Below, one piece after another: positions 32,539-48,123 of a stretch of DNA of 64,000 bases. How positions within the stretch are numbered: the stretch's first letter is position 1; each line of letters begins with the position of its first letter. The DNA lies in contig NZ_JAMXOD010000012.1 in assembly GCF_024721305.1 (NCBI RefSeq), positions 47,912 through 111,911 of the forward strand, given 5' to 3'. The DNA comes from Aequitasia blattaphilus. GTDB lineage: Bacteria > Bacillota > Clostridia > Lachnospirales > Lachnospiraceae. The notes beneath the pieces were generated by a model. It was not told where the DNA came from. It worked only from the letters and a program-made list of their open reading frames with translations, and did not search any database. The translations under genes were made by a program, and so were the position numbers.

Positions 32539-32551
32539 GAGGAGGAAATAA

Positions 32552-33388
32552 ATGAACGAGTTGGAACTAAAAAAGATTGCTTGTGAAGTTCGTAAAGGAA
32601 TCGTAACGGCAGTTCATAGTGCAAAAGCGGGACATCCAGGCGGATCTCTATCTGCTGCGGATATTTATACATATTTATACTTTGAAGAAATGAATATTGA
32701 TCCAAAGAATCCGAAAAATCCAGAGAGAGACCGATTTGTCTTGTCAAAAGGTCATACATCTCCAGGATACTATTCTACTTTAGCCCAAAGAGGATTTTTC
32801 CCGGTTGAAGATTTGAAAACTTTTCGTCATCTAGGATCTTACCTTCAAGGACATCCGGATATGAAGCATATACCAGGTGTGGATATGAGTAGTGGTTCTC
32901 TGGGTCAGGGAATCTCTGCGGCAGTTGGAATGGCAATTGCAGGTAAAATGAAGAAAAAGGATTACAGAGTTTATACATTATTAGGAGATGGAGAAATTCA
33001 AGAAGGTCAGGTATGGGAGGCTTCTATGTTAGCAGCTCACAGAAAACTGGACAACTTGGTTGTAATTGTAGACAACAATGATTTGCAAATTGATGGATCA
33101 ATCAAAGATGTAAACTCTCCCTATCCAATTGATAAAAAGTTTGAAGCTTTCAATTTCCACGTGATTAATATCTGTGGACATAACTTTGATGAACTGAAGG
33201 CAGCCTTTGACGAAGCAAAAACCGTGAAAGGAAAACCAACTGCAATCATTGCCAAGACAGTAAAAGGAAAATGCGTATCTTTTATGGAAAACAAAGCAGA
33301 GTGGCATGGTGCTGCACCAAATGATGAACAGTATGCAGTTGCAATGGCAGATTTAGAAAAGGTAGGTGAAGAACTATGTCAGAAGTAA
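32552..33388 (+). CDS. Transketolase, N-terminal (ThDP-binding) subunit
   Basis: A 278-residue half transketolase. It holds the ThDP diphosphate/Mg motif LGDGEIQEGQVWEA near residue 148 and the substrate-contact GHPGGSLSAADIY segment near residue 28. The split form is common in Clostridia. The C-terminal half starts inside its 3' end (13-nt overlap), ensuring balanced synthesis. Confidence 0.93.
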   Translation: MNELELKKIACEVRKGIVTAVHSAKAGHPGGSLSAADIYTYLYFEEMNIDPKNPKNPERDRFVLSKGHTSPGYYSTLAQRGFFPVEDLKTFRHLGSYLQGHPDMKHIPGVDMSSGSLGQGISAAVGMAIAGKMKKKDYRVYTLLGDGEIQEGQVWEASMLAAHRKLDNLVVIVDNNDLQIDGSIKDVNSPYPIDKKFEAFNFHVINICGHNFDELKAAFDEAKTVKGKPTAIIAKTVKGKCVSFMENKAEWHGAAPNDEQYAVAMADLEKVGEELCQK

Positions 33389-34314
33389 AGAAAATAGCAA
33401 CGAGAGATAGTTACGGTAATGCCCTTGTTGAGCTTGCCGAAAAATATGATGACTTAGTAGTTCTTGACGCAGACCTTGCAGCAGCGACAAAGACGGGTGT
33501 TTTGAAAAAAGCATATCCAGATCTTCACATTGACTGTGGTATTGCAGAGTGTAATATGATGGTGGTAGCGGCAGGAATGTCAACCTGTGGATTTGTACCT
33601 TTTGCAAGTACCTTTGCAATGTTTGCAGCGGGAAGAGCATTTGAGCAAGTGAGAAACTCCATAGGATATCCACATATGAATGTGAAAATTGGAGCAACTC
33701 ATGCAGGAATCTCTGTAGGAGAAGACGGGGCATCTCATCAGTGTAATGAGGATATCGCTCTTATGCGTACCATTCCTGGAATGGTGATTTTAAACCCCGC
33801 AGATGATGTGGAAGCAAAGGCAGCTGTTCACGCAGCGTATAAGCACGACGGACCTGTGTATCTGCGATTCGGAAGACTTGCAGTGCCAGTTATTAATGAT
33901 CATGCAGATTATAAGTTTGAAATCGGAAAAGCAGTTACTTTAAGAGAAGGAACAGATGTTACTTTAATTGCAACAGGGCTGCCGGTATCAAACACTTTGG
34001 AAGCGGCAGAAATGCTTGCGGCAGAAGGAATCAGTGCGGAAGTAATTAACATGCATACAATTAAACCAATTGATAAGGATGCAATTCTTGCTTCTGCAAA
34101 GAAGACAAAGAAGATTATTACAATTGAAGAACATTCTGTGCTTGGTGGACTTGGTGGAGCAGTCAGTGAAGTGGTTGCAGAGACAAACGCAGCAAGCGTA
34201 CACCGGATTGGAATCGAAGATGTATTTGGAGAATCTGGACCGGCAGTGGAATTATTAAAGAAGTATGGCTTAGATGCAGAAGGCATCTACAAAAAAGTAA
34301 AGAGTTTTATTTAA
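33376..34314 (+). CDS. Transketolase, C-terminal subunit
   Basis: A 312-residue subunit with the pyrimidine-binding domain (GIAECNMMVVAAGMSTCG near residue 55, with the catalytic Glu) and C-terminal transketolase domain (TIEEHSVLGGLGG near residue 250). With the upstream half it interconverts pentose, tetrose and hexose phosphates. It ends at a strong hairpin. Confidence 0.93.
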   Translation: MSEVKKIATRDSYGNALVELAEKYDDLVVLDADLAAATKTGVLKKAYPDLHIDCGIAECNMMVVAAGMSTCGFVPFASTFAMFAAGRAFEQVRNSIGYPHMNVKIGATHAGISVGEDGASHQCNEDIALMRTIPGMVILNPADDVEAKAAVHAAYKHDGPVYLRFGRLAVPVINDHADYKFEIGKAVTLREGTDVTLIATGLPVSNTLEAAEMLAAEGISAEVINMHTIKPIDKDAILASAKKTKKIITIEEHSVLGGLGGAVSEVVAETNAASVHRIGIEDVFGESGPAVELLKKYGLDAEGIYKKVKSFI

Positions 34315-34317
34315 AGC

Positions 34318-34353
34318 TTGGCCAGAGGCACAAATTATGGGCCTCTGGCTTTT
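34318..34353 (+). terminator. Terminator between transketolase and rpiB
   Basis: GCCAGAGGC (34321-34329) pairs with GCCTCTGGC (34341-34349), extended by AGC/GCT, then TTTT. Separates the catabolic operon from rpiB-mdh, at least partly. Confidence 0.82.
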
Positions 34354-34379
34354 AAAGTTTATAAGGAGGATTTAAGAAT

Positions 34380-34817
34380 ATGAAATTAGGAATTGCAAGC
34401 GATCACGCTGGATATGAATTGAAATGTGAAATAATTAACTATTTATCCCAAAAAGGTCTTGACATTCTGGACTATGGAACAGATAATGTAGAGAGTGTTT
34501 CTTATGTGAATTACGGTAAAGTCCTTGGAGAAGCAGTTGCAAAAGGCGAGGTGGAAAAAGGAATTGCCATATGTGGTACAGGTGTTGGTATTTCTATTGC
34601 AGCGAACAAAGTAAAAGGAGTTCGGGCAGCAGTATGTAGTGAGCCGACGACAGCAAGATTAGTAAAACAACACAACAATGCAAATGTAATCGCATTTGGA
34701 GCAAGAATAGTAGGAACAGAAGTTGCTAAGTTTATTGTAGACGAGTGGCTGGATGCTGAATTTCAAGGTGGGAGACACGCAGAGAGAATCAGTGAAATAC
34801 ATTCGATAGAAGACTAA
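34380..34817 (+). CDS. rpiB: RpiB/LacAB-family sugar-phosphate isomerase
   Basis: A 145-residue isomerase: start IASDHAGYELK, catalytic loop AICGTGVGISIAANK near residue 63 (Cys as base), and HNNANVIAFGAR near residue 97. RpiB interconverts ribose-5- and ribulose-5-phosphate. In erythritol/threitol pathways (EryI/DerI) an RpiB paralogue converts D-erythrulose-4-phosphate to D-erythrose-4-phosphate, which suits this neighbourhood. Motifs do not separate the two roles. Confidence 0.9.
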   Translation: MKLGIASDHAGYELKCEIINYLSQKGLDILDYGTDNVESVSYVNYGKVLGEAVAKGEVEKGIAICGTGVGISIAANKVKGVRAAVCSEPTTARLVKQHNNANVIAFGARIVGTEVAKFIVDEWLDAEFQGGRHAERISEIHSIED

Positions 34818-34873: not shown

Positions 34874-35821
34874 ATGAGCAGGAAAATTACGGTTATCGGA
34901 GCGGGAAGTGTAGGGGCAACAATTGCTTATACATTATCATTGGAGAGTCTGGCATCAGAGATCGTGTTGATTGATATCAACAAAGAAAAAGTAGAAGGCG
35001 AGGTTATGGACATCGCTCAAGGCATGAGTTTCAGGGATCCTATTTCAATTATAGCAGGAGAATATGAAGATGCAGCAAACTCAGATATCGTTGTAATTAC
35101 ATCAGGAATTGCTCGAAAACCTGGTCAGACAAGAATTGAATTGACACAAACGAATGTAAATATTATGAAAAAAATTGCTCCAGAGATTGTTAAAGTTGCG
35201 CCAAAGGCTCTTTACGTAATCGTAAGCAATCCAGTGGACATTATGACATATGTATTCGCTAAAACTTCAGGATTGCCAGAAAATCAGGTTATTGGATCTG
35301 GAACTACCTTGGATACAGCACGGCTGAAAACTGGTTTATCGGAACACTTTGACGTGGCGCAAAAAAATATTCACGCATACGTATTTGGTGAACACGGTGA
35401 TACCTCGTTTATTCCATGGTCTTGTGCAGCAATCGGTGGAGCGAAGATGGATGAATATACAAAAATTGCTCAGTCCTTTGATAAAGAGACAAAGCCAGTA
35501 GACAAAGAGGCGATGATTGAGTATGTACGCAAATCAGGAGGAAAAATTATTGCCAATAAAGGTGCTACATTCTATGCAATTGCCGTTTCAGTGGTTAAGC
35601 TTTGTGCAAAGCTTTTAGCTTCTTCTGATTCAATTGCCACAGTTTCAACCCTTATGCATGGTGAGTATGGAGTGGATGATGTTTGTCTCAGTGTGCTTAC
35701 TCTGGTAGGACCAAATGGAGTTCAGGGAAAAATACCAGTAGAGCTTAATGATGAAGAAATGGAAAAACTGCATGCCAGTGCAAATGCATTAAAAGAAGTA
35801 ATCAGAGGAATCGAAATCTAA
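34874..35821 (+). CDS. mdh: Malate dehydrogenase of the LDH-like family
   Basis: A 315-residue NAD-dependent 2-hydroxyacid dehydrogenase. NAD fold GAGSVGATIAYTL near residue 9 with Asp34 favouring NAD. The specificity position reads Arg81 (SGIARKPGQTR), where lactate dehydrogenases carry Gln, so oxaloacetate/malate is expected. Catalytic His is in GEHGDTSF near residue 176. Next to fumarase and fumarate reductase genes it supplies malate from oxaloacetate. AGGAGG precedes the start. Confidence 0.85.
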   Translation: MSRKITVIGAGSVGATIAYTLSLESLASEIVLIDINKEKVEGEVMDIAQGMSFRDPISIIAGEYEDAANSDIVVITSGIARKPGQTRIELTQTNVNIMKKIAPEIVKVAPKALYVIVSNPVDIMTYVFAKTSGLPENQVIGSGTTLDTARLKTGLSEHFDVAQKNIHAYVFGEHGDTSFIPWSCAAIGGAKMDEYTKIAQSFDKETKPVDKEAMIEYVRKSGGKIIANKGATFYAIAVSVVKLCAKLLASSDSIATVSTLMHGEYGVDDVCLSVLTLVGPNGVQGKIPVELNDEEMEKLHASANALKEVIRGIEI

Positions 35822-35843
35822 GCAGGAATAAGTAGGAGGAGTT

Positions 35844-36641
35844 ATGACATACAGTTATTACCCGGGATGTACACTTAAAACAAAAGCGAAAGACTTGGAT
35901 ATCTATGCAAGACGTTCGGCAAAGGCTCTTGGAATCGAATTGGAAGAAATAGAAGAATGGCAGTGTTGTGGAGGAGTATATCCTTTGGCAACCGATGAAA
36001 TTGCTTCCAAGCTTTCTTCGGTTCGTGCATTGAATGAGGCAAAAGAAAAGGAGCAGGATTTAGTAACGATGTGTTCCGCCTGTCATCACGTGATTAAACG
36101 TGTGAATGATGATATGGCAAACGTGGAAGATATTCAAACAAGAGCAAACAACTACATGGAGTTGGATACTCCTTATAAGGGAGAGACGAAGGTATATCAT
36201 TTCCTGGAAGTCTTAAGAGATAAGGTAGGGTTTGACAAAATAAAGGAAAAAGTAGTAAATCCCTTAAAAGGAAGAAAAATAGGAGCATATTACGGTTGCC
36301 TGTTGTTGCGGCCAAGTAAGGTTATGGGTTTTGATAATGCTGAAAATCCATCCATTATGGAAGACTTTATTCGAGCATTAGGAGCAACCCCAGTAGTGTA
36401 TCCGTTTCGCAATGAATGTTGTGGTGGATACATATCCTTGAAGGAAGAAAAAAGAACAGTAGAGATGGTGACAAAGATTGTGGAATCTGCAAAAGGCGCA
36501 GAGGCGGAAGGATTGATTACAGCCTGTCCACTTTGTTTGTATAACTTAAATAAAAACAATAGTAAAGCAGATATGCCGGTGTACTATTTTACAGAATTGT
36601 TGGCAGAAGCATTGGGAGTAAAAGAGGAGGTAGAGGCATGA
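35844..36641 (+). CDS. hdrB: HdrB-like heterodisulfide reductase subunit B
   Basis: A 265-residue protein with two CCG domains: YYPGCTLKT, then WQCCGG (near residue 40) and CSACHHV; and YYGCLLLRP, then ECCGGY (near residue 193) and CPLCLYN. This is the full Cys pattern for the two noncubane [4Fe-4S] clusters that reduce disulfides in HdrB. It partners HdrC (4-nt ATGA overlap) and HdrA. The natural acceptor here is unknown: a thiol/disulfide, or the FrdBA pair downstream. Confidence 0.9.
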   Translation: MTYSYYPGCTLKTKAKDLDIYARRSAKALGIELEEIEEWQCCGGVYPLATDEIASKLSSVRALNEAKEKEQDLVTMCSACHHVIKRVNDDMANVEDIQTRANNYMELDTPYKGETKVYHFLEVLRDKVGFDKIKEKVVNPLKGRKIGAYYGCLLLRPSKVMGFDNAENPSIMEDFIRALGATPVVYPFRNECCGGYISLKEEKRTVEMVTKIVESAKGAEAEGLITACPLCLYNLNKNNSKADMPVYYFTELLAEALGVKEEVEA

Positions 36642-37012
36642 TACAGGATGATATTAAGAAAATCAGCGGCGTGAATCCATACAAATGTATGAAGTGTGGA
36701 AAATGCTCAGCCTCATGTCCCTCATTTAATGAGATGGACATAAAGCCTCATCAATTTGTATCCTATGTACTAAATGATGATATTGATGCATTGTTAAAAT
36801 CAGAGTCCATCAAACAATGCTTAAGCTGCTTTGCATGTGTGGAACGTTGTCCAAGAGATGTAAAGCCAGGAAATCTTATCGATACAGTCAGACAAATGGT
36901 GGTAAGAAAGAGGGGAGCAGAGTTGTTAAGCCCCGAAGAAGTGACACAGTTGTTAGATCCGGAATTACCCCAACAACTACTGGTTAGCGCATTTAGAAGA
37001 TATCGGAGGTGA
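36638..37012 (+). CDS. hdrC: HdrC-like ferredoxin subunit
   Basis: A 124-residue two-cluster protein. Cys17/20/23/27 followed by Pro, and Cys61/64/67/71 followed by Pro, are complete [4Fe-4S] motifs. HdrC relays electrons between HdrA and HdrB. Coupled to hdrB upstream and abutting hdrA downstream. Confidence 0.92.
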   Translation: MIQDDIKKISGVNPYKCMKCGKCSASCPSFNEMDIKPHQFVSYVLNDDIDALLKSESIKQCLSCFACVERCPRDVKPGNLIDTVRQMVVRKRGAELLSPEEVTQLLDPELPQQLLVSAFRRYRR

Positions 37013-37017
37013 TAAAG

Positions 37018-39006
37018 GTGCAGAGAATAGGAGTTTTTGTCTGTCATTGTGGAAGTAATATTGCTGCAACGGTAGACGTTGAAAGAGTAGCTCAGTACGC
37101 GTTGTTAGAACCAGGTGTGGTTCATGCGGAAGACTACCAATATATGTGTTCCGAAGCGGGACAAATGAAGATTATTGAAGCGGTAAAAGAAAAGAATTTA
37201 ACAGGTATTGTAGTATGTTCCTGTTCGCCTCGTATGCACGAGACGACTTTTAGAAATGCAGCAAAGCGGGCTGGAATCAATCCTTATATGGTTGAAATCG
37301 CAAATATCCGTGAGCATTGTTCATGGATTCATAAGGATAAAGAGGAAGGAACAGAAAAGGCAGTTATTCTTGCAAGAGCAGCAATTGCAAAGGTGAATTT
37401 AAATACACCTTTAGTTCCAGGAGAAAGCCGTGTAACAAAAAGAGCATTGATTATTGGAGGCGGAATCGCCGGTATTCAAACGGCGCTGGATATTGCAGAT
37501 GCAGGATATGAAGTAGATATCGTTGAAAAGACACCAAGTATCGGTGGAAGAATGTCACAGTTAGATAAGACCTTTCCAACCCTGGACTGTTCTGCATGTA
37601 TTTTAACACCGAAAATGGTGGATGCGGCAGCCCATGAAAAGATTAATATATATACCTACAGTGAAGTAGACAAGGTAAGTGGATTTGTAGGTGATTTTAC
37701 TGTTGATATTCGGAAAAAAGCCAGAAGTATCGATATGGACAAATGTACGGGATGCGGTGTATGTTCTGAAAAATGTCCAATGAAGAAGATTCCCAGTGAA
37801 TTTAATAGAGGTCTAGGAAACAGAAGCGCGATTTACACACCTTTTGCACAGGCAATTCCAAATGTTCCTGTTATTGATCGTGAAAACTGTATTAAGTTTA
37901 AAACCGGAAAATGTGGACTTTGTTCGACGGTTTGTCAGGCAGGGGCGATTGATTATGAGCAAGAGGATGAAATCATTTCAGAAAAGTATGGAGCAATTGT
38001 AGTTGCAACGGGATTTGACACCATTAAGCTGGATGATTTTGACGAGTATGCATACAACCAGAGTAAGGATGTCATTACATCTCTTGAATTAGAGCGTGTA
38101 ATGAATGCGGCAGGTCCTACAAAAGGACATTTAGAGAGATTGTCAGACGGTAAGCATCCAGAGGAAATTGTATTTATCCAATGTGTGGGTTCAAGAGATG
38201 TAACCTGTAGAGGAAAAGAATACTGCTCAAAGGTTTGCTGCATGTATACAGCAAAGCATGCAATGCTGATTCGTGATAAATACCCAGATGTTAATGTAAC
38301 AGTATTCTATATCGATGTACGTACACCCGGTAAGAACTTCGATGAATTCTACCGTCGTGCAGTGGAAGAATACAATGTAAATTACGTAAAAGGTCAAGTA
38401 GGAAAAGTTGCACCAATGGAGAACGGAAAGCTCTTGGTTCAAGGAGTGGACTTACTGGACAATCGACAGATTCTTAAAGAAGCAGATATGGTCGTTCTTG
38501 CAACAGCAATTGAGCCAGAAGCAGGGGTTCGTAAAATTGCAACGATGTTAACAGCAAGTATTGATACCAATGATTTCCTGACCGAAGCGCATCCGAAGCT
38601 TCGTCCCGTAGAATCTCCAACTGCAGGGGTATTCTTGTCTGGTGTTTGTCAGGGACCAAAAGATATTCCGGAGACGGTGGCACAAGCTGGAGCAGCAGCG
38701 GTAAAAGCCATTGGTCTGCTTGCAAAAGATAAGCTCTTGACCAATCCATGTACGGCACAAGCTGATGAGCTTTTATGTAATGGGTGTTCAACCTGTGCAA
38801 ATGTGTGTCCTTATGGAGCAATTGCTTATGAAGAAAAGGAAATCAATGATCATGGGATTCGTGAGACCAGAAGAGTTGCTGCGGTAAATACAGCCCTTTG
38901 CCAGGGATGTGGAGCTTGTACCGTTACTTGTCCATCAGGAGCTATGGACTTACAAGGATTCTCCAACAGACAGATTTTAGCGGAGGTAGATGCGATATGT
39001 CGATAG
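37018..39006 (+). CDS. hdrA: HdrA-like flavin-bifurcating subunit
   Basis: A 662-residue FAD/iron-sulfur protein. N-terminal VFVCHCGSN domain, FAD-binding GGGIAGIQTALDIADAG near residue 147 with the HdrA-specific LDCSACILTPKM near residue 189, an inserted ferredoxin segment (CTGCGVCSEKCP) and a C-terminal pair (CNGCSTCANVCP, CQGCGACTVTCP). In methanogens HdrA splits electron pairs at its FAD between ferredoxin and HdrBC. The GTG at 37018 is chosen because CGGAGG lies 8 nt upstream; another GTG at 37009 overlaps that site. Confidence 0.92.
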   Translation: MQRIGVFVCHCGSNIAATVDVERVAQYALLEPGVVHAEDYQYMCSEAGQMKIIEAVKEKNLTGIVVCSCSPRMHETTFRNAAKRAGINPYMVEIANIREHCSWIHKDKEEGTEKAVILARAAIAKVNLNTPLVPGESRVTKRALIIGGGIAGIQTALDIADAGYEVDIVEKTPSIGGRMSQLDKTFPTLDCSACILTPKMVDAAAHEKINIYTYSEVDKVSGFVGDFTVDIRKKARSIDMDKCTGCGVCSEKCPMKKIPSEFNRGLGNRSAIYTPFAQAIPNVPVIDRENCIKFKTGKCGLCSTVCQAGAIDYEQEDEIISEKYGAIVVATGFDTIKLDDFDEYAYNQSKDVITSLELERVMNAAGPTKGHLERLSDGKHPEEIVFIQCVGSRDVTCRGKEYCSKVCCMYTAKHAMLIRDKYPDVNVTVFYIDVRTPGKNFDEFYRRAVEEYNVNYVKGQVGKVAPMENGKLLVQGVDLLDNRQILKEADMVVLATAIEPEAGVRKIATMLTASIDTNDFLTEAHPKLRPVESPTAGVFLSGVCQGPKDIPETVAQAGAAAVKAIGLLAKDKLLTNPCTAQADELLCNGCSTCANVCPYGAIAYEEKEINDHGIRETRRVAAVNTALCQGCGACTVTCPSGAMDLQGFSNRQILAEVDAICR

Positions 39007-39437
39007 AAAATAAAGAATTCAAGCCGAAAATAGTTGCCTTTTGCTGTAACTGGTGCAGCTATGCTGGAGCCGATTTGGCAGGCAGCAGCCGACTGGCTTA
39101 CCCGGCAGACGTAAAGATTATTCGAGTGCCTTGTTCCTGTCGTGTGAATCCGATGTTTATTCTAAGAGCCTTTGAAAAAGGTGCAGATGGAGTGATTTTA
39201 TGTGGATGTCATCCAGGTGATTGCCACTATAGTACAGGAAATTATTACACAAGAAGACGTATGAGTTTGTTATTCTCAATGCTTGATTATATTGGGGTGG
39301 AAAATGGACGTACCCGAGTGGAATGGGTTTCAGCAGCAGAGGGAGTTAAGTTTTCGACTACTATGAATGATTTTGCAAAGACAATTCATTCTCTTGGAGA
39401 AAATGTTAGATTGGGGGATATCAGATGCAAGAATTAA
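38997..39437 (+). CDS. flxD: MvhD/FlxD-like [2Fe-2S] linker subunit
   Basis: A 146-residue MvhD-family protein: FCCNWCSYAGADLAG near residue 13, VPCSCRVNP near residue 42, and CGCHPGDCHY near residue 62 hold the cluster. MvhD connects the electron-input module to HdrA. It overlaps hdrA by 10 nt, with GGAGG before the ATG at 38997; a longer start inside hdrA is rejected. Its association with NAD-type subunits downstream, rather than MvhA/MvhG hydrogenase, marks the Flx arrangement. Confidence 0.9.
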   Translation: MSIENKEFKPKIVAFCCNWCSYAGADLAGSSRLAYPADVKIIRVPCSCRVNPMFILRAFEKGADGVILCGCHPGDCHYSTGNYYTRRRMSLLFSMLDYIGVENGRTRVEWVSAAEGVKFSTTMNDFAKTIHSLGENVRLGDIRCKN

Positions 39438-40384
39438 TTACACGTGGAAAAGAACTGTTGGCAGATGGAAGCGTTGTGGGAATTCTTGGATGGAAAGAAG
39501 GAGATTTCTCCTACAATCCAGAGCCTGCATTCTTCCAGAACGAAGAGGAATTAGATAAATTTATATACGATGGATTTTGTGGAGCAAATCTGAGTAAATT
39601 TATGATAGAAGCTTCCAAAAAAGAAGGGAAAACATTGGTGTTTTTAAAACCATGTGATACCTACAGCTTTAATCAGCTTTTAAAGGAGCACCGTATTGAT
39701 CGTGAAAAAGCATACATCATTGGTGTTGGATGTAGTGGAAAGCTTAGCCTTGATAAGATAAAAGAGGCAGGAGTAAAAGGAATCCAAAAGATTACAGAAG
39801 AGGAAGACAAGATTCATGTGGAAACACTTTACGGTGATAAAACCCTGAACCGCAGTGACGTTCTTCTGGATAGATGCCATGTATGCAAAGGAAAAGAACA
39901 CCGTATTTTCGATGAAATCATTGGTGAGTCTAAAGAGACAAATGATAAAGATAAGTTTAGTGAAGTAGAAGCAATTGAAAAGATGTCTTCAGAAGAAAAG
40001 TTTTTATTCTTTCAGAAAGAGCTTAGTAAGTGCATTCGCTGTAATGCCTGTCGAAATGTCTGCCCTGCATGCTCTTGCAGGAAATGTGTTTTTGACAGTA
40101 ATAAGTTTGACAGTGCACAAAAAGTGAATACAAACTCATTTGAAGAAAAAATGTTTCACATTATCCGTGCTTTTCATGTGGCTGGCCGCTGTACAGACTG
40201 TGGTGAATGCTCGCGAGTTTGTCCAGAGGGAATACCACTTCACCTATTCAATCGGAAGTTTATCAAAGATATTGATGAGCTGTACGGAGAATTCAGAGCC
40301 GGAGAGGATGCGGAAACAGTTGGTCCCCTTACGGAGTTTACCTTTGATGATGCAGAACCACAAGAAGCGGTAGAAAGGGGATAA
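39425..40384 (+). CDS. Flx-like iron-sulfur subunit (FlxC position)
   Basis: A 319-residue soluble protein. The first ~170 residues resemble the FrhB/FdhB-like hydrogenase-beta fold (KPCDTYSFNQLL, VGCSGKL, LDRCHVCKGKEH with extra conserved Cys). Two [4Fe-4S] motifs follow: Cys203/206/209/213 and Cys256/259/262/266. It overlaps mvhD by 13 nt. By order and composition it fits FlxC of the HdrABC-FlxABCD complex described in Desulfovibrio; the exact letter is tentative. Confidence 0.75.
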   Translation: MQELITRGKELLADGSVVGILGWKEGDFSYNPEPAFFQNEEELDKFIYDGFCGANLSKFMIEASKKEGKTLVFLKPCDTYSFNQLLKEHRIDREKAYIIGVGCSGKLSLDKIKEAGVKGIQKITEEEDKIHVETLYGDKTLNRSDVLLDRCHVCKGKEHRIFDEIIGESKETNDKDKFSEVEAIEKMSSEEKFLFFQKELSKCIRCNACRNVCPACSCRKCVFDSNKFDSAQKVNTNSFEEKMFHIIRAFHVAGRCTDCGECSRVCPEGIPLHLFNRKFIKDIDELYGEFRAGEDAETVGPLTEFTFDDAEPQEAVERG

Positions 40385-40387
40385 TGT

Positions 40388-41422
40388 ATGTATAAGATAG
40401 CAAAAGAAAAGTTACCGGCATTATTCCAGTTATTAGCAAATGAACAAGAACTGATTTTGCCAATCAAAAATAGTGGACAAGTGAATTTTGGACTTTGGGA
40501 TGAAGAGGTAGAAGTAGATTTAACAGCATTAAATTCGGTGAAATCACCGAAAGACGCATTTTTCCCCCAAGGTGAAAGCTTATATACCTGTAAAAAGGAT
40601 GGGAAGAAAATAGAGATTCAGCAGGAAGAGCTGAGGGACAAAGACTTTGTAATTTTTGGTATGCGTCCTTGTGATTATCGCGGCGTGGAAGTTTTGGATA
40701 AGGTGTTTTTAGTGGATCCTGTAGACAGCTATTATCAAGCAAGAAGAGAGCACGGTATTATTGTGACAATGGCGTGCAGTGAGCCAGAGGAAACTTGCTT
40801 CTGTAAAGTTTTTGATATTGATTGTGCAGATCCAAAGGGAGACGTGGCTGCATGGCTTGACAAGGATTTTCTTTATTGGAAGCCAGTCACTGACAAGGGA
40901 AAAGCGATAACAGAAAAAGTAAGCAGTTTGTTTGCAGAAAGTGATGATAAGGCAGTTGAGACGATTCAAGAGGATATCCGAAGTATTGTAGAAAAGCTTC
41001 CTTACTCCAATCTTTCCTTAGAAGGATGGGGCGCTGGAAAAACAGATGAAAAGTTTGACTCTCCAATATGGGAAAGTTTTGCAAATTCCTGTCTTGCCTG
41101 TGGTACGTGTACTTTTATCTGCCCTACTTGTCAGTGCTATGATATAAAGGATTATAATACAGGCAATAGCGTAGAGAGATATCGTTGTTGGGATTCTTGC
41201 ATGTATTCTGATTTTACAATGATGGCTCATGGAAATAACCGAACCACTCAAATGCAAAGATTCCGTCAGAGATTTATGCATAAACTGGTATACTTTCCAA
41301 CGAATAATGATGGAATGTATTCCTGTGTAGGCTGTGGAAGATGTGTTTCAAAATGTCCATCATCTTTAAATATTGTGAAAGTAATAAAGAGATTTCAGGA
41401 GGAAGGAGGAAAAGCAAATTGA
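40388..41422 (+). CDS. Flx-like iron-sulfur subunit (FlxB position; AsrA/HydB-like)
   Basis: A 344-residue protein of the sulfhydrogenase-beta/AsrA type. It has FGMRPCDYRGVEVLD near residue 90, FCKVFDIDCAD near residue 138, and two C-terminal [4Fe-4S] motifs: Cys235/238/241/245 and Cys313/316/319/323. In hydrogenases and anaerobic sulfite reductases this subunit passes electrons to or from an FAD/NAD subunit, which is the next gene. Three bases separate it from the previous stop. Confidence 0.78.
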   Translation: MYKIAKEKLPALFQLLANEQELILPIKNSGQVNFGLWDEEVEVDLTALNSVKSPKDAFFPQGESLYTCKKDGKKIEIQQEELRDKDFVIFGMRPCDYRGVEVLDKVFLVDPVDSYYQARREHGIIVTMACSEPEETCFCKVFDIDCADPKGDVAAWLDKDFLYWKPVTDKGKAITEKVSSLFAESDDKAVETIQEDIRSIVEKLPYSNLSLEGWGAGKTDEKFDSPIWESFANSCLACGTCTFICPTCQCYDIKDYNTGNSVERYRCWDSCMYSDFTMMAHGNNRTTQMQRFRQRFMHKLVYFPTNNDGMYSCVGCGRCVSKCPSSLNIVKVIKRFQEEGGKAN

Positions 41423-42273
41423 GCGAATGTACTTGTAAAAAAGACTATACTTTAGATACTTTAGTTCCTCAAGTAGGTGTGATTACGGATATCCGCCAGG
41501 AGACGCCGGATGTTAAAACATTTCGTGTAAATGCACCGGAAGGCGGAAAGTTATTTGAGCATATGCCGGGACAGTGTGCAATGGTATGTGCACCGGGAAT
41601 CAGCGAAGGAATGTTTTCGATTACTTCTTCCCCTACAAATAAAGAATTTCAAGAATTCAGTATAAAGAAATGTGGTGTTTTAACGGATTATCTTCACGGT
41701 TTAGAGGTGGGAGATGAAATTTTGGTACGTGGACCCTACGGTAATAATTTTCCGGTAGAGACGGAATTACGAGGAAAAGACTTACTCTTTATTGCTGGAG
41801 GCATTGGGCTTGCACCTCTGCGGTCTGTTATTAACTACGTAATGGATAACAGGGAGAACTATGGAAAAGTAGATATCTTATATGGTTCAAGATCTGCTGA
41901 TGACTTGGTTCAGTTGAAAGAGATTCAAGAAGTATGGATGAAGACCGAAGGAGTTAATGTATACCTTACCATTGACCGTGAGCAGGAAGGCTGGGATGGA
42001 AATGTAGGCTTTGTTCCTACGTATTTAAAAGAAATTGGTTTTTCCTCTGATAAAACAGCTCTTGTATGTGGTCCTCCGATTATGATTAAATTCGTCCTTC
42101 AGGCCTTGGAAGAAATTGGTTTTAGCAAAGACCAGGTTTATACAACTCTTGAACTTAGAATGAAGTGCGGAGTAGGAAAATGTGGACGTTGTAACATTGG
42201 TGATAAGTATGTATGTAAGGACGGTCCCGTTTTTCGTTGTGATGAAGTGGACAGTATGCCTGATGAATATTAG
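41419..42273 (+). CDS. flxA: FlxA-like FAD/NAD(P)H-binding subunit
   Basis: A 284-residue ferredoxin-NADP reductase-type subunit: FAD segment MFSITSSP near residue 65, NAD(P) segment FIAGGIGLAPLRS near residue 124, CGPPIM near residue 218, and a C-terminal [2Fe-2S] motif from Cys250/255/258/266. It is the likely NADH entry point. The TTG at 41419 overlaps the preceding stop as TTGA and has GGAGGAAGGAGG upstream; a longer start at 41341 is rejected. Confidence 0.85.
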   Translation: MSECTCKKDYTLDTLVPQVGVITDIRQETPDVKTFRVNAPEGGKLFEHMPGQCAMVCAPGISEGMFSITSSPTNKEFQEFSIKKCGVLTDYLHGLEVGDEILVRGPYGNNFPVETELRGKDLLFIAGGIGLAPLRSVINYVMDNRENYGKVDILYGSRSADDLVQLKEIQEVWMKTEGVNVYLTIDREQEGWDGNVGFVPTYLKEIGFSSDKTALVCGPPIMIKFVLQALEEIGFSKDQVYTTLELRMKCGVGKCGRCNIGDKYVCKDGPVFRCDEVDSMPDEY

Positions 42274-42291
42274 AAAGGATTGGAAAAGCAA

Positions 42292-42966
42292 ATGCAAGAG
42301 ATGGTAAACGTTTATTTTTATGGAAAAAAGTATAGTGTACCTGCAGATCTAACCATAATGACAGCAATGGAGTACTCAGGATATACCCTGAATAGAGGCT
42401 GTGGATGCCGTCACGGTTTCTGTGGAGCTTGTGCTACGATTTATAGAGTGAAGGGAAAGAATGAGCTCAAAACTTGTCTTGCCTGTCAAACACAGGTAGT
42501 GGAAGGAATGTATGTTGCAAGTATTCCATTTTTTCCGACGGATAAGAGAACTTATGATATAAAGAAAATTAAACCAACGGAACAAATCATGATGGAGCTG
42601 TATCCTGAAATTTACAGCTGTATCGGATGTAATGCTTGTACAAAGGCTTGTACTCAGGACTTAGATGTTATGCAGTACATCGCATATGCTCAAAGAGGAG
42701 AGTACGAGAAGTGTGCAGAAGCTTCTTTTGATTGTGTGGGCTGCGGATGCTGTTCTACAAGATGTCCTGCTGGAATCTCCCACCCAATGGTTGGTGTGTT
42801 AGCAAGACGTCTGACCGGGAAGTACATTGCTCCTGAAACAGAGCATTTAAAGAAGAGAGTGGAAGAGGTTATACATGGCGAGTTTGATAGTTTAATTGAA
42901 CAAATCATGGAAAAACCAATTACAGAAATGAAAGAACTTTACAATAACAGAGAGATTGAAAAGTAG
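42292..42966 (+). CDS. Soluble FrdB/TfrB-like iron-sulfur subunit
   Basis: A 224-residue protein with an N-terminal [2Fe-2S] domain (RGCGCRHGFCGACA, then CLAC; Cys37-65) and two C-terminal motifs, Cys110/113/116/120 and Cys148/151/154/158, both of the four-Cys [4Fe-4S] type. Quinone-linked FrdB normally ends with a [3Fe-4S] site, so this version looks adapted to a soluble partner. No membrane anchor genes follow. It would relay electrons to the flavoprotein encoded 11 nt downstream. A TTG 12 nt upstream is an alternative start. Confidence 0.8.
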   Translation: MQEMVNVYFYGKKYSVPADLTIMTAMEYSGYTLNRGCGCRHGFCGACATIYRVKGKNELKTCLACQTQVVEGMYVASIPFFPTDKRTYDIKKIKPTEQIMMELYPEIYSCIGCNACTKACTQDLDVMQYIAYAQRGEYEKCAEASFDCVGCGCCSTRCPAGISHPMVGVLARRLTGKYIAPETEHLKKRVEEVIHGEFDSLIEQIMEKPITEMKELYNNREIEK

Positions 42967-42977
42967 GGAGGCCCGGG

Positions 42978-44579
42978 ATGTTTACAGAAGAAATGCAAAA
43001 GTCAATCAAAAAGGTTGAAGAGACCCGCGCAAAACGTATGGAGAATGAACCACAACGTATGAGTGCGGAAGAAAAAGAGAAGCTTTTAAAAGAATTTCAT
43101 CCGGACTACCGAGAAGAAGGCTTTGTTGAAATAAAAGTGGGTCCAAATAAGGGACAAAAGATTCCGGTAGAACTAGGAAATCTTATTCATTCCAATAGTC
43201 GTATTCTGAATGAAAAAATCGATTTAAGCAAAATAGATTATGATGTGGATGTATTGGTAATTGGTGGCGGCGGAGCCGGTTCATCAGCAGCAATCGAAGC
43301 AAAAGAGGCCGGAGCGAATGTAATGATGGTGACAAAGCTTCGTATTGGAGATGCAAATACCATGATGGCAGAAGGTGGAATTCAAGCGGCAGATAAAGAA
43401 AACGATTCTCCGGTACAGCATTACTTAGATGCTTTCGGAGGAGGTCATTTTGCAGCAAGGCCTGAGCTCTTAAAAAGGCTTGTTATGGAAGCGCCAGATG
43501 CAATTGAATGGTTGAATGAGCTTGGGGTTATGTTCGATAAGGACGAAAAGGGAAATATGGTTACTACCCATGGTGGTGGAACATCAAGAAAGAGAATGCA
43601 CGCTTGTAAGGATTATTCCGGAGCGGAAATTATGCGTACATTAAGAGATGAAGTGTTAAACCTGGGAATACCTGTTGTTGAATTTACCTCAGCAGTAGAG
43701 CTTCTTAAAGATGATCACGGTCAAGTGGCGGGAGCAATTCTTTTAAATATGGAGACAGGAGACTATGCTGTAGCAAGAGCAAAAACTGTTATCATTGCCA
43801 CAGGTGGAGCGGGACGCCTTCATTACCAGGATTTCCCTACGTCCAATCATTATGGAGCAACGGCAGATGGACTTGTTATGGGATATCGTGCAGGTGCACC
43901 ACTACTCTACCAGGATACGATTCAATACCATCCTACAGGTGCAGCTTATCCAGCCCAAATATTTGGTGCATTGGTAACAGAAAAAGTGCGGTCCTTAGGA
44001 GCAATGCTTGTGAACGTAGATGGAGAGGCATTTATGCATCCTCTTGAAACGAGAGATGTGTCAGCGGCATCGATTATTCGTGAATGTACAGCAAGAGAAA
44101 AGGGAATCGACACTCCAATTGGAAAAGGAATCTGGCTGGATACACCAATGATTGAGATTCTTGGTGGAGAAGGAACAATTGAAAAGAGAATTCCTGCTAT
44201 GCTTCGTATGTTTTTAAACTATGATATTGATATGAGAAAAGAACCAATTCTTATTTACCCAACACTCCATTATCAGAATGGTGGTCTTGAAATTAATGGA
44301 GATGGATACGTTTCTGAGCTTGGAAACCTTCTGGTTGCAGGAGAAGCAGTTGGAGGAATCCATGGAAGAAATAGATTGATGGGAAATTCTTTATTAGATA
44401 TAATAGTATTTGGTAGAAATGCTGGAAAGGCGGCAGCGAAAAAGGCACAGGAGACAAAGATTGGAAACTTAAATCTTGATCATGTGAAAGCTTATGAAGA
44501 AGCTTTAAAAACTGCTGACGTACAGACAGATGATGTGTCACCACTGTTACTGCCAAAATATGCTCGTCATGAAAGATAA
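42978..44579 (+). CDS. Fumarate reductase-type flavoprotein (FrdA/TfrA-like)
   Basis: A 533-residue flavoprotein. After an ~88-residue extension comes the FAD fold VLVIGGGGAGSSAAIEA. Active-site motifs of fumarate reductase/succinate dehydrogenase are present: QYHPTG (His319), Arg360 in ETRDVSA, LHYQNGG (His432) and GRNRLMGNSLL (~464-474). The position of the covalent-FAD His is Asn127 (DANTMMAEGG), so FAD should be noncovalent, as in TfrA and NadB. Fumarase follows directly. L-aspartate oxidase is less likely because of the FrdB and Hdr partners. Confidence 0.85.
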   Translation: MFTEEMQKSIKKVEETRAKRMENEPQRMSAEEKEKLLKEFHPDYREEGFVEIKVGPNKGQKIPVELGNLIHSNSRILNEKIDLSKIDYDVDVLVIGGGGAGSSAAIEAKEAGANVMMVTKLRIGDANTMMAEGGIQAADKENDSPVQHYLDAFGGGHFAARPELLKRLVMEAPDAIEWLNELGVMFDKDEKGNMVTTHGGGTSRKRMHACKDYSGAEIMRTLRDEVLNLGIPVVEFTSAVELLKDDHGQVAGAILLNMETGDYAVARAKTVIIATGGAGRLHYQDFPTSNHYGATADGLVMGYRAGAPLLYQDTIQYHPTGAAYPAQIFGALVTEKVRSLGAMLVNVDGEAFMHPLETRDVSAASIIRECTAREKGIDTPIGKGIWLDTPMIEILGGEGTIEKRIPAMLRMFLNYDIDMRKEPILIYPTLHYQNGGLEINGDGYVSELGNLLVAGEAVGGIHGRNRLMGNSLLDIIVFGRNAGKAAAKKAQETKIGNLNLDHVKAYEEALKTADVQTDDVSPLLLPKYARHER

Positions 44580-44591
44580 GAGGAATCGAAT

Positions 44592-45434
44592 ATGCGTGAA
44601 ATTAATGCGAATCAGATAACGGATGTTGTTGAAAGACTGTGTATCAAAGCAAATGAGCATCTGCCTACAGATGTAAAAAATGCAATTGAAAGCTGCCGTG
44701 CCTGTGAGGATTGGGATATTGCAAAGGGTGTGTTGGATCAGATTGTAGAAAATTATGAAATCGCAGATGCACAAAATGTACCAATTTGCCAGGACACCGG
44801 GATGGCCTGTGTGTTTTTGGAAATAGGACAGGAGGTCCATGTAAGTGGCGGAGACTTAAGTGAAGCAATTCATGAAGGTGTTCGAAGAGGGTATGAAAAT
44901 GGATACTTAAGAAAGTCTGTTGTAAAAGACCCGGTACGACGGGGAAATACAGGAGATAATACTCCAGCTATGATTTATACAGAAATTGTACCAGGAGACC
45001 AGATTCATATCACAGTAGGACCAAAAGGTTTCGGAAGTGAAAATATGAGTATGATCCGTATGTTTAAGCCTTCAGCTGGATTACAAGGAATCAAAGATTT
45101 TATCCTTGAGGTTGTGGAAACAGCAGGTCCGAATCCATGTCCACCTATGGTGGTAGGAGTCGGAATCGGAGGAACCTTCGACAAAGCGGCGCTTCTTGCT
45201 AAAAAAGCTCTGATGCGGCCAATTGATACCAAGAATGAAGACCCTTATTATGCAGATTTGGAAGTTGAAATGCTGGAGAAGGTAAATGCCCTTGGAATAG
45301 GACCTCAAGGTTTTGGCGGAAAGACAACGGCAATTGGTTTAAATATTGAAACAATGCCAACTCATATTGCAGGAATGCCTTGTGCGGTTAATATTAACTG
45401 TCATGTGACGCGTCATGCATCGGAGGTGATATAA
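44592..45434 (+). CDS. Class I fumarase, alpha subunit
   Basis: A 280-residue iron-sulfur hydro-lyase subunit (FumA N-terminal/TtdA type). Cluster Cys residues lie in [12 protein letters not shown] near residue 59 and elsewhere (GPNPCPP, near residue 180); [12 protein letters not shown] near residue 121 is typical. It interconverts malate and fumarate with the beta subunit, with which it shares one base (ATAATGG). Tartrate dehydratase is the alternative; mdh and frdA in the operon favour fumarase. Confidence 0.88.
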
Positions 45435-45991
45435 TGGAAAAACACATTCAACTGCCTCTTACAGAGGAAAAAGCAAAAGGATTAAGAGCTGGTGATACAG
45501 TCTACTTAACAGGAACGATTTATACATCCAGAGATGCAGGACATAAGCGTATGTGTGAAGCGCTGGAAAGAGGAGAAGAGCTTCCCTTTAATCCTCAAGA
45601 TGCTACCATTTATTACGTGGGACCAACTCCTGCAAAACCAGGACAGGTGATAGGTTCGGCAGGACCAACTACCAGCGGCCGCATGGATGCCTATGCACCT
45701 ACAATGATGAGTGTTGGTGCAAGAGGTATGATTGGAAAAGGAGCCAGATTACCAGAAGTAATTGATGCAATGAAAAAGTATAAAGGTGTGTATTTTGGTG
45801 CGATCGGTGGAGCGGGAGCTTTACTTGCGAAATCCATTAAGAAAGCAGAACTAATTGCCTTTGAAGATCTTGGAGCGGAAGCGTTAAGGGAGCTCTATGT
45901 AGAGGAAATGCCCTTAGTTGTAATTATTGACACAGAAGGCAATAACCTTTATGAAGAAGGAAGAGCTGCATATTTGGAGCAAAAAAAGTAA
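45434..45991 (+). CDS. Class I fumarase, beta subunit
   Basis: A 185-residue C-terminal/TtdB-type subunit: GDTVYLTGTIYTSRDAGHKR near residue 20, GPTTSGRMD near residue 76, and GARGMIGKGA near residue 95. It completes the oxygen-sensitive hydro-lyase made with the alpha subunit. Confidence 0.9.
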   Translation: MEKHIQLPLTEEKAKGLRAGDTVYLTGTIYTSRDAGHKRMCEALERGEELPFNPQDATIYYVGPTPAKPGQVIGSAGPTTSGRMDAYAPTMMSVGARGMIGKGARLPEVIDAMKKYKGVYFGAIGGAGALLAKSIKKAELIAFEDLGAEALRELYVEEMPLVVIIDTEGNNLYEEGRAAYLEQKK

Positions 45992-46040: not shown

Positions 46041-46697
46041 ATGAAAAACATATTATCACCATCAATTTTATCAGCAGATTTTGGATATTTAAAAGATGAA
46101 ATTGAAAAGACAGAAAAAGCAGGAGCCGAATATCTTCACTTTGATGTGATGGATGGACTCTTTGTTCCCAGTATTTCCTTTGGAATGCCTGTATTGGAGG
46201 CTGTATCAAAGTATACAAAACAGGTTTTGGATGTTCATTTGATGATTCAGGAACCAATCCGTTACATTGAAACCTTCCAGAAGGCAGGAGCAGACATTAT
46301 TACAGTGCATTATGAAGCCTGCGAAGATTTAAAAGCAACCATACAAAAGATTAAAGATTGTGGCGCAAAGGTTGGGGTATCCATTAAACCAAAAACTGAT
46401 GTATCTGTAATCGAAGAGTTTTTAGATGATATGGATATGCTTTTGATTATGACTGTGGAGCCTGGATTTGGCGGACAATCCTTTATACCGGAAAGTATTG
46501 GACGTATAAAAGAGGCCAGAGCAATTATGGAAAAACGAGGTCGTCAGATTGATATACAAGTAGACGGCGGAATTTATCTTCATAACATTGAGGAAGTTTT
46601 AGCGGCTGGAGCTAACGTGATTGTAGCTGGGTCAGCAGTTTTCAAAGGTGATGCTTCGAAAAATGTAGAAGATTTTATGAAAGTATTAGACAAATAA
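46041..46697 (+). CDS. rpe: Ribulose-phosphate 3-epimerase
   Basis: A 218-residue TIM barrel: ILSPSILSADFGYL start, HFDVMDGLFVPSISFG near residue 34 with metal ligands, DVHLMI near residue 66, and TVEPGFGGQSFI near residue 138. It interconverts ribulose-5- and xylulose-5-phosphate. The ATG at 46041 follows GGAGG. It is the last gene of the mdh-hdr-frd-fum run, so pentose-phosphate genes (rpiB, rpe) flank the redox genes. Confidence 0.93.
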   Translation: MKNILSPSILSADFGYLKDEIEKTEKAGAEYLHFDVMDGLFVPSISFGMPVLEAVSKYTKQVLDVHLMIQEPIRYIETFQKAGADIITVHYEACEDLKATIQKIKDCGAKVGVSIKPKTDVSVIEEFLDDMDMLLIMTVEPGFGGQSFIPESIGRIKEARAIMEKRGRQIDIQVDGGIYLHNIEEVLAAGANVIVAGSAVFKGDASKNVEDFMKVLDK

Positions 46698-46828: not shown

Positions 46829-48028
46829 ATGATTATCAGATTGAAATATGTAGAAGCTCTAAAAACTTATCGAGATGTGCCTGTTGTAAAAATATTAGCA
46901 GGAATTCGCCGCTGTGGGAAATCAACTATTTTAAAGATGCTGCGAGAGGACTTATTAAAAAGTGGTATTGATTCAGAACATATTATAGAGATGCGGTATA
47001 CCTCGGAAGATTTTGCTGATGGTATGACAGATAAAGAGATGTATAATGGCATTAAAGAAAAAATTCTTGACGGGGATCGCTATTACATTTTACTTGATGA
47101 AGTGCAAGAAATAGAGAGTTGGGAGAAGGTTGTTAATAGTCTGTTGGAAAATGGGAATACAGATATATATGTAACCGGATCGAATTCCAAATTGATGTCA
47201 AGTGAAATATCTACCTATCTGACTGGCAGATATATTTCGATTCCGGTTTTTACGCTATCCTTTGCTGAATACATGGAATTTAAAAAAGCAGAGAATTTGT
47301 CTCGTAAAGATTTGTTGTATGAGTATATCCGTGTGGGTGGTTTTCCCATTGTTGCTCAGTATAATTTTGACGAACTTTCGTCTCATCAAATTGTGGAGGG
47401 GATCTATAATTCGGTTATCACAAATGACATTACGAGACGTCACCGAATAACCAATTACGATTTGTTCAACCGTGTTGTAAGATATATTGTTGAGAATGTA
47501 GGGAAGACGTTTTCGGCAAACGCAATTGTAAAATTTCTAAAAAGTGAAGGGCGTTCTCTCTCCGTGGAAGCCATATATAACTATCTGGAATGGCTTGAAA
47601 AAGCTTTTGTTATTTATCGTTGCAGGAGGTATGATTTACAAGGGAAGTCGGTGTTGAAAACCCAGGAAAAATTTTATCTTGCTGACGCTTCGCTAAAATA
47701 TTGTATCATGGGTTTTGATCCTAAGTCGATTGCGGCTATGATGGAAAATATTGTCTATCTTGAATTGTGTCGAAAGGGCTATGAGGTCTATATCGGTAAA
47801 AATGAAGCAAAAGAAATCGATTTTGTAGCGGTGCATCGTGATGAGCGGATTTATGTTCAGGTATGCCGCAGATTGCCGGAGGGGTCGGATAGAGAGATTG
47901 CAAACCTACTTGAAATTAGAGACCATTATCCGAAGTATGTTGTGACCCTTGAAGAACTTGACGTGGGGAATGTTAATGGAATTAAGATTGTGCATCTAAA
48001 AGATTTTTTACTCCAGGAGAATTATTAA
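46829..48028 (+). CDS. AAA ATPase with DUF4143-type C-terminal domain
   Basis: A 399-residue protein: Walker A AGIRRCGKST near residue 24, Walker B YYILLDEVQEI near residue 88, sensor GSNSKLMS, then a DUF4143 region with a PD-(D/E)xK-like core (EIDFVAVHRDERIYVQV near residue 340). This family is widespread in anaerobes, often in accessory DNA, and its role is unknown. Its codon use (many TCG/CGT/TTG) looks somewhat different from the metabolic genes around it. It appears as a lone insert between terminators. Confidence 0.85.
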   Translation: MIIRLKYVEALKTYRDVPVVKILAGIRRCGKSTILKMLREDLLKSGIDSEHIIEMRYTSEDFADGMTDKEMYNGIKEKILDGDRYYILLDEVQEIESWEKVVNSLLENGNTDIYVTGSNSKLMSSEISTYLTGRYISIPVFTLSFAEYMEFKKAENLSRKDLLYEYIRVGGFPIVAQYNFDELSSHQIVEGIYNSVITNDITRRHRITNYDLFNRVVRYIVENVGKTFSANAIVKFLKSEGRSLSVEAIYNYLEWLEKAFVIYRCRRYDLQGKSVLKTQEKFYLADASLKYCIMGFDPKSIAAMMENIVYLELCRKGYEVYIGKNEAKEIDFVAVHRDERIYVQVCRRLPEGSDREIANLLEIRDHYPKYVVTLEELDVGNVNGIKIVHLKDFLLQENY

Positions 48029-48123
48029 CCCGATAGAGCATCAGCTAAATAAATATTTATTCATTTTGTCATTTCAGCCGACAATCCTATTAGAAACATA
48101 TGGATTTAAGGGGGGATGGCAGA

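Follow-up and report, generated by a model that had tools for sequence, protein, structure and literature searches.

A conserved Hdr-Flx-Frd gene cluster of Clostridia, candidate for a ferredoxin-linked fumarate reductase, and the varied contexts of its FrdBA subunits

Gene content of the cluster

A 64,000-nucleotide stretch of the Aequitasia blattaphilus genome (contig NZ_JAMXOD010000012.1, positions 47,912 to 111,911; hereafter the window) carries on its + strand one run of open reading frames (ORFs), from 34874 to 45991, in the order mdh-like, hdrB, hdrC, hdrA, flxD, flxC, flxB, flxA, frdB, frdA, fumA and fumB; successive members overlap or lie apart by no more than 22 nucleotides. The subject of this study is its nine-gene core, HdrBCA-FlxDCBA-FrdBA (35844-44579), whose ORFs overlap by 4-13 nucleotides or lie 3-18 nucleotides apart. 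This is a real, conserved and functionally coherent cluster, and a ferredoxin-linked enzyme of such make-up has already been proposed in print; our own additions are the survey, the finding that FrdBA occurs in modular contexts, and an HdrB subtype associated with FrdBA linkage. The cluster probably serves the NADH-driven reduction of fumarate to succinate, with part of the energy saved as reduced ferredoxin: we give a probability of about 0.6 to its encoding a cytoplasmic NADH:fumarate,ferredoxin oxidoreductase.

All nine ORFs that the original prediction, a reading of the bare sequence and its translations, had described as collinear are there, all on the same strand, and their assignment to HdrB, HdrC, HdrA, FlxD, FlxC, FlxB, FlxA, FrdB and FrdA matches the Pfam and NCBIfam results. 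HdrB (35844..36641) has two PF02754 domains with two complete CCG motifs, whose ten cysteines are invariant in 96/96 aligned homologues; it matches the structures 5odc_B and 9sfi_C and falls in a clade, described below, that we call Frd-type. HdrC (36638..37012), recognized by Pfam and NCBIfam, has two 4Fe-4S motifs, and its eight cysteines are invariant in 101/101 homologues. HdrA (37009..39006; 665 amino acids), the candidate bifurcating subunit with flavin adenine dinucleotide (FAD), scores 797 bits on the NCBIfam HdrA2 model, below the cut-off of 1100, and its alignment to methanogen HdrA (5odc_A) spans residues 5-663 (E 7e-209). It has both the FAD domain and the conserved cysteines that membership of an FlxABCD-HdrABC complex demands, 26 of its 32 cysteines being invariant in 92/92 homologues.

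FlxD (38997..39437, ATG at 38997) is a MvhD/FlpD protein (PF02662, E 1.6e-53). FlxC (39425..40384) is an iron-sulfur (Fe-S) subunit related to the beta subunit of the formate dehydrogenase in Hdr-Fdh complexes (9t1s_M, 7bkb_E, 8rvu_E), with cysteines kept in 95-96 of 96 homologues, except C52 (89/96). FlxB (40388..41422), an Fe-S subunit with a Fer4_22 domain, and FlxA (41419..42273) resemble sulfhydrogenase beta and gamma respectively (9nez_B, E 4e-48; 9nez_C, E 6e-60). FlxA combines the domains NAD_binding_1, FAD_binding_6 and DHODB_Fe-S, as suits an FAD/NAD(H)-binding entry subunit, and C251, C256, C259 and C267 of its DHODB-type Fe-S site are present in 97/97 homologues. The more likely starts, judged from the ORFs, are TTG at 41419 for FlxA and ATG at 42292 for FrdB, for which a longer form from a TTG at 42280 is possible.

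In FrdB (42292..42966), assigned by Pfam, the ligand-type cysteines for one 2Fe-2S and two 4Fe-4S clusters are invariant in 131/131 homologues (C41 in 127/131). The protein has no PF02754 (CCG) domain, and the TfrB model is split across three proteins of the cluster: positions 17-86, the only ones that FrdB matches, then 125-231 in HdrC and 265-487 in HdrB. FrdA (42978..44579; 533 amino acids) is extended at its N-terminus by about 85 residues that precede the FAD domain (FAD_binding_2). H318, E335, R359, H431 and R466 are invariant in 137/137 homologues and T334 in 136/137; we take these to be the fumarate-binding and catalytic set of the SdhA/FrdA fold. Alignment to 1nek_A places Asn127, again in 137/137, at the position of the histidine that presumably attaches FAD covalently, and the FAD of FrdA is thus expected to be non-covalent. 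TfrA is the best NCBIfam model for FrdA, at 330.7 bits against an equivalog cut-off of 718. The AlphaFold model of FrdA is of moderate confidence (mean predicted local distance difference test score, pLDDT, 71.5) and was used for the overall fold alone, which is best matched by E. coli FrdA (1kf6); that of FrdB is poor (mean pLDDT 54.8) and was set aside. L-aspartate oxidase was considered as another identity for FrdA and rejected on the profile scores (331 bits for TfrA against 254), the FrdB partner and the gene context.

Conservation and co-occurrence in the family and class

FrdA has at least 582 candidate relatives, and the top 80 of them, at 77-92% identity, serve here as the named loci. 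The closest among the matches listed is that of Ohessyouella blattaphilus (92%), and by their 80 titles the loci belong mostly to Lachnospiraceae, Oscillospiraceae and other Clostridia, many of them from animal guts. Where at least 7.3 kb of DNA lies upstream of FrdA, the nine-gene order is kept without exception, in 59/59 named loci and 13/13 loci of a family sample; contig ends truncate the remaining loci (21 of 80 and 2 of 15), which were left unjudged. Such conservation of the nine-gene set is far beyond chance. Gene fusions were absent, 0/1247 and 0/106 matching ORFs having two separate query matches. An mdh-like gene lies directly upstream in 40 of the 53 named loci with enough DNA, and fumA directly downstream in 54 of 62.

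The neighbourhood survey of FrdA with HdrA, which the original prediction had put forward as a check, bears the association out. FrdA occurs in 16 and HdrA in 18 of the 150 genomes of the family sample, all 16 being among the 18. In a class sample of 391 genomes, scored for up to three candidates per genome, FrdA is found in 54 and HdrA in 59, with 53 in common; 46 of the 47 FrdA-HdrA pairs on the same contig lie about 4.0 kb apart. The odd pair (L145) has all nine genes rearranged as FrdBA-HdrBC-HdrA-FlxDCBA, and the sole FrdA genome without HdrA is 75% complete, its cluster being cut by a contig end.

Genomes with HdrA and no FrdA number two in the family sample and six in the class sample. 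In the two family genomes (loci L143 and L144), Hdr-Flx without FrdBA lies near genes for a molybdopterin oxidoreductase, an Fe-S subunit (4Fe-4S dicluster protein) and UbiA, as checked in one of them (L143). As for the six, one genome (62% complete) has its contig cut, one has HdrA-FlxD without other Flx genes, and four have a long fused HdrA and Flx, accompanied at L149 by methylenetetrahydrofolate reductase and formate-tetrahydrofolate ligase. At a further locus, L021, hdrA is split between two overlapping frames, one giving residues 3-189 and the other 198-665, through either an assembly frameshift or a real break.

FrdBA contexts across the phylum

A sample of 398 genomes of the phylum gave 40 FrdA-family places, 36 of which, besides the window, were read for context; FrdA genomes G891, G909 and G784 stand outside this reading. 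Matches fall into two groups, members of this FrdA family having 52-63% identity with a match that begins at query residue 1-5, and ordinary FrdA/SdhA 35-40% with a match from residue 87 on.

Hdr genes adjoin FrdBA in 17 of the 36 loci, in several arrangements. Eight loci (L198, L201, L220, L222, L226, L228, L230 and L211) have HdrCB-HdrA-second HdrA-MvhD-FlxC-like-FrdBA, the second HdrA being 1053-1489 amino acids long; four (L205, L208, L223, L224) have FrdBA-HdrBC-HdrA-FlxD-FlxC as far as the retrieved DNA extends; and one (L213) has HdrCBA-FlxDCBA-FrdBA. The last four (L200, L206, L207, L229) have HdrC-HdrB-FrdB-FrdA alone, the retrieved DNA containing neither HdrA nor Flx. This module, which may be a split thiol:fumarate reductase, points to a link role for HdrCB. 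The same four genomes carry a second HdrCBA-Flx set with another type of HdrB. At L198, a 2-oxoacid:acceptor oxidoreductase alpha gene was seen 3' of the cluster.

Elsewhere FrdBA keeps other company. It follows malic enzyme in five loci (by profile match in L202, L203 and L212, by N-termini in the other two) and pyruvate carboxylase in three (L195 by profile match, L196 and L197 by N-terminus and length). It lies downstream of multihaem cytochrome genes in two, NrfH-like in L199 and NapC/NirT-like in L214, and of a gene for an FMN-binding Fe-S protein in L215; eight loci, one of them cut by a contig end, have remaining non-Hdr contexts. On the FrdA tree Hdr adjacency switches at least six times, with contig-cut L026, L033 and L148 labelled Hdr-Flx-Frd by default and contig-cut L225 labelled as having no Hdr. 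An HdrA match was found in 18 of 22 FrdBA genomes searched, all candidates being scored, save in G569, G615, G782 and G805, where 54 were scored. Six genomes with unlinked FrdBA, five of the malic-enzyme type and G766, have a separate HdrB-HdrC-HdrA-Flx cluster in the gene order of the window (L235-L240; L239 stops at a contig end before flxA). Judged by its gene neighbourhoods outside the class, FrdBA is a plug-in head found in several contexts.

An HdrB subtype linked to FrdBA

Identity to the HdrB of the window follows the context of the gene. It is 43-48% in 16 of 17 FrdBA-linked loci outside the class (34% in L211) and 50% in the rearranged L145. In two Frd-free genomes it is 32%, and in the second Hdr copies of four genomes 34-36%, the FrdBA-linked HdrB of these same four having 43-45%; these controls amount to six loci, 6/6 at 32-36%, and three of the four second-copy genomes come from one family. 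The ranges for HdrC (31-40% linked, 31-38% control) and HdrA (50-58% and 54-57%) overlap, and the group of L198 and L201 has an HdrA at 52%, below the control range, yet an HdrB at 46%. HdrB is thus the Hdr subunit whose identity changes with context, which makes it the likely adapter of the Hdr core to FrdBA in linked loci such as that of the window.

The HdrB tree agrees, with a 100/100 split that sets 44 Frd-type rows apart from 11 others; L211 is among the 11 and, like L243, is a long or odd row. Four genomes have both HdrB types. Threonine 10, proline 47 and histidine 119 are present in 101/101 Frd-type HdrB and different in 10/10 others, at positions picked post hoc for contrast; the ten others include L241, L242, L249 and L250, with L211 and L244 left out. 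T10 and P47 lie near cluster cysteines. Unlinked FrdBA gives a less uniform result: taking the best HdrA locus per genome and leaving out the Hdr loci of G610, Frd-type HdrB is found in 7 of 12 unlinked Hdr loci of FrdBA genomes (48-56% in L235-L240, 41% in L243). We also considered that Frd-type HdrB might be closer than ordinary HdrB to SdhE of methylmenaquinol:fumarate reductase, and found no support for this, as both HdrB types score alike on both models.

We tentatively put forward a more general picture, possible although short of probable, in which FrdBA would be a modular soluble head and Frd-type HdrB its dedicated adapter. The two non-cubane clusters of HdrB would then wire or gate electrons from HdrC to FrdB instead of reducing a disulfide, and the head could be plugged into a bifurcating HdrA-Flx, a double HdrA or a bare HdrCB. 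The HdrB result offers a concrete, testable site for re-wiring a bifurcating Hdr core to a new acceptor.

Proposed reaction and alternatives

The route outlined by the original prediction, without quinone or membrane anchor, is the best reading; it draws support from synteny and co-occurrence, from the conservation of catalytic and cluster residues, and from the split between HdrB subtypes. FlxA would oxidize NADH, and the electrons, relayed by FlxB, FlxC and FlxD, would be split at the HdrA FAD. The low-potential electron would leave through the ferredoxin domains of HdrA to ferredoxin; the high-potential one would take the path HdrC, Frd-type HdrB, FrdB and the non-covalent FAD of FrdA to fumarate. 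The net reaction would be 2 NADH + fumarate + oxidized ferredoxin -> 2 NAD+ + succinate + reduced ferredoxin, and re-oxidation of the ferredoxin by Rnf would build an ion gradient. What we infer from the genes is that the subunits form a physical complex, that HdrB passes electrons directly to FrdB, and that the enzyme bifurcates with this stoichiometry.

Soluble enzymes could thus turn phosphoenolpyruvate (PEP) into succinate by way of carboxylation, reduction to malate, dehydration and a final reduction, with Rnf available to re-oxidize ferredoxin. PEP carboxykinase and RnfC both pass the curated cut-offs in the genome, which is 97.5% complete in 60 contigs. The cluster includes no membrane anchor subunit, and the genome gave no match to the Sdh_cyt anchor PF01127, in a search limited to this anchor type and positive in 7/14 controls. 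With published E0' values of +33 mV for fumarate and -320 mV for NADH (PMC5861303) and -400 to -500 mV for ferredoxin (PMC12773636), we compute about -53 to -33 kJ/mol for the coupled reaction under standard conditions.

If the proposal is true, bacteria of this kind save energy when they reduce fumarate and need no quinone, haem or membrane anchor to do so. The gain over a plain NADH-dependent enzyme would be about 0.56 ATP per succinate (computed with 2 H+ per Rnf turnover and 3.6 H+ per ATP, PMC12773636), and the published ATP balance of Blautia luti would change. The cluster was read in one genome of Blautia luti, that of strain MSK.16.34 (L109), in which the next FrdA-like match is 32% identical. 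B. luti forms succinate as an end product, has a methylviologen:fumarate reductase activity of 504-989 mU/mg and transcribes frdAB highly; the main text of that study has zero words starting with hdr or flx (PMC12773636).

Several observations weigh against the bifurcating enzyme. The coupling to ferredoxin is itself something we infer, and the activity of B. luti was measured with methylviologen, its authors modelling a plain NADH-dependent fumarate reductase (PMC12773636). No Hdr gene adjoins FrdBA in 19 of the 36 phylum loci, contig-cut L225 among them. No HdrA match was found in 4 of the 22 FrdBA genomes searched, namely the three with pyruvate carboxylase-FrdBA (L195-L197) and G603, each 99% complete and with all candidates scored, so that FrdBA can work without HdrA and has other donors too. 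HdrB is of the other type in 4 of the 12 unlinked Hdr loci (L241, L242, L249 and L250; 34-36%) and absent from another such locus in an FrdBA genome (L244); L211 is Frd-linked yet has the other type; and comparison of SdhE and HdrB profiles did not separate the two types. Disulfide chemistry is conceivable as well, because HdrB keeps all ten CCG cysteines.

The B. luti model, the lack of adjacent Hdr genes and the genomes without HdrA would fit a non-bifurcating arrangement, in which FrdBA is fed from NADH or ferredoxin by another route and Hdr-Flx is a separate, co-expressed enzyme, or in which the whole is a plain NADH-to-fumarate wire without ferredoxin reduction. We consider this rather improbable for the window: co-occurrence is near-perfect and gene order fixed in the class, the HdrB subtype tracks adjacent FrdBA, and HdrA aligns over its full length with methanogen HdrA and keeps its invariant cysteines.

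The original prediction had allowed for a thiol/disulfide carrier between HdrBC and FrdBA, as in methanogen thiol:fumarate reductase: the substrate of HdrB would be a small disulfide or else a thiol protein, and the thiol so formed would reduce FrdBA. The intact CCG cysteines and the choice of TfrA as best named model for FrdA suit this alternative, now less favoured and to our mind quite unlikely. FrdB lacks the CCG domain and matches TfrB at one end of the model; no DsrC was found in the genome, where a single CCG match lies outside HdrB; and the differences of Frd-type HdrB near its cluster cysteines (T10 and P47, with H119 as well), positions chosen post hoc, fit a changed partner. That the complex would run mainly in reverse, as succinate oxidation, or reduce fumarate for biosynthesis only is very improbable: the 2-oxoacid:acceptor oxidoreductase gene beside FrdBA at L198 does suggest roles in the tricarboxylic acid (TCA) cycle, but the mdh-fum context of the window, the PEP carboxykinase and Rnf of the genome, the succinate end product of B. 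luti (PMC12773636) and the strongly uphill NAD+-linked oxidation of succinate by published potentials all oppose it.

Relation to known systems

All seven subunits of the Desulfovibrio NADH dehydrogenase/heterodisulfide reductase FlxABCD-HdrABC are encoded together in the window, with the differences that FrdBA is appended and that the genome lacks DsrC. The HdrB of the window belongs to the separate Frd-type clade, defined on rows that do not include Desulfovibrio HdrB. Ramos 2015 reportedly deals with the Desulfovibrio system, and a 2019 preprint by Koendjbiharie and van Kranenburg is said to be the earlier source of the proposal of a ferredoxin-linked fumarate reductase.

These two are the works cited in PMC7282089 for a ferredoxin link 'as proposed previously'. 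That article describes a 'succinate operon' of Pseudoclostridium thermosuccinogenes with fumarase, a seven-gene Flx-Hdr set and a two-gene fumarate reductase, for which a ferredoxin-linked enzyme is proposed; it rises about fourfold under CO2 limitation, not significantly for every subunit. Compared by gene description, the gene set and the proposed coupling are the same; the organism is another, and in the window an mdh-like gene adjoins the cluster. The statement of the original prediction that no enzyme of this full composition had been described is thereby overtaken, both gene set and bifurcation hypothesis being in print (PMC7282089), with related models elsewhere (PMC6315080, PMC11636981). 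The latter concern tubeworm symbionts with Hdr-Flx together with tfrAB and korABCD, and suggest direct flow from Hdr-Flx to thiol-fumarate reductase. Unlike the cluster of the window, the symbiont genes are interspersed with genes of the reductive TCA cycle, in Gammaproteobacteria and in a context of carbon fixation.

TfrAB of methanogens includes the best profile for FrdA, but both TfrA and TfrB scores lie below equivalog cut-offs, and its CCG domain is fused to the Fe-S subunit, whereas in the window it is on HdrB and not FrdB. Methanogen HdrABC-MvhAGD and Hdr-Fdh complexes (5odc, 7bkb, 9t1s) are solved relatives of HdrA, HdrB and the FdhB-like FlxC; their acceptor is CoM-S-S-CoB, in contrast to the window, where NADH via FlxA is the expected donor and fumarate the acceptor. 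With quinol:fumarate reductase and succinate dehydrogenase, FrdA shares catalytic residues, but neither a membrane anchor nor the covalent-FAD histidine. No such fumarate reductase appears in the parts seen of PMC5861303, PMC12578642, PMC8982180 and PMC8671834. Our literature search, mostly of titles and abstract beginnings with subscription journals largely outside it, brought no further description of an Hdr-Flx-Frd enzyme that we recognized, and the literature examined, itself in part, gave no biochemical proof of ferredoxin coupling.

Neighbouring genes

Fumarase had been predicted 3' of the cluster, and both subunits are there above NCBIfam cut-offs: fumA (alpha, 44592..45434, +; PRK06246, 423 bits) and fumB (beta, 45434..45991, +; PRK06842, Fe-S-containing hydro-lyase, 293 bits). 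The predicted mdh on the 5' side fared less simply. An NAD-dependent dehydrogenase gene (34874..35821, +; Ldh_1_N/C) does end 22 nucleotides before hdrB and its malate dehydrogenase model is above cut-off (292.7 bits), but the L-lactate dehydrogenase model, also above cut-off, scores higher (353.7 bits). It is probably a malate dehydrogenase, since its R-K-P-G-x-T-R loop has an arginine at what we take to be the position typical of these enzymes.

Promoter and terminator scans gave no excess of sites in the window over shuffled sequence (28 against 30.1 and 8 against 7.5), so the claim of an operon rests on spacing and synteny. An Rfam search of the window returned zero matches.

Pentose-phosphate genes (transaldolase-like, split transketolase, RpiB and ribulose-phosphate 3-epimerase) lie on both flanks, at 31885-34817 and 46041-46697, and the succinate cluster thus sits within a pentose-phosphate neighbourhood. 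On the 3' side we also note an AAA_14/DUF4143 ATPase (46829-48028) and an 809-residue protein with a Listeria-Bacteroides repeat (48100-50529).

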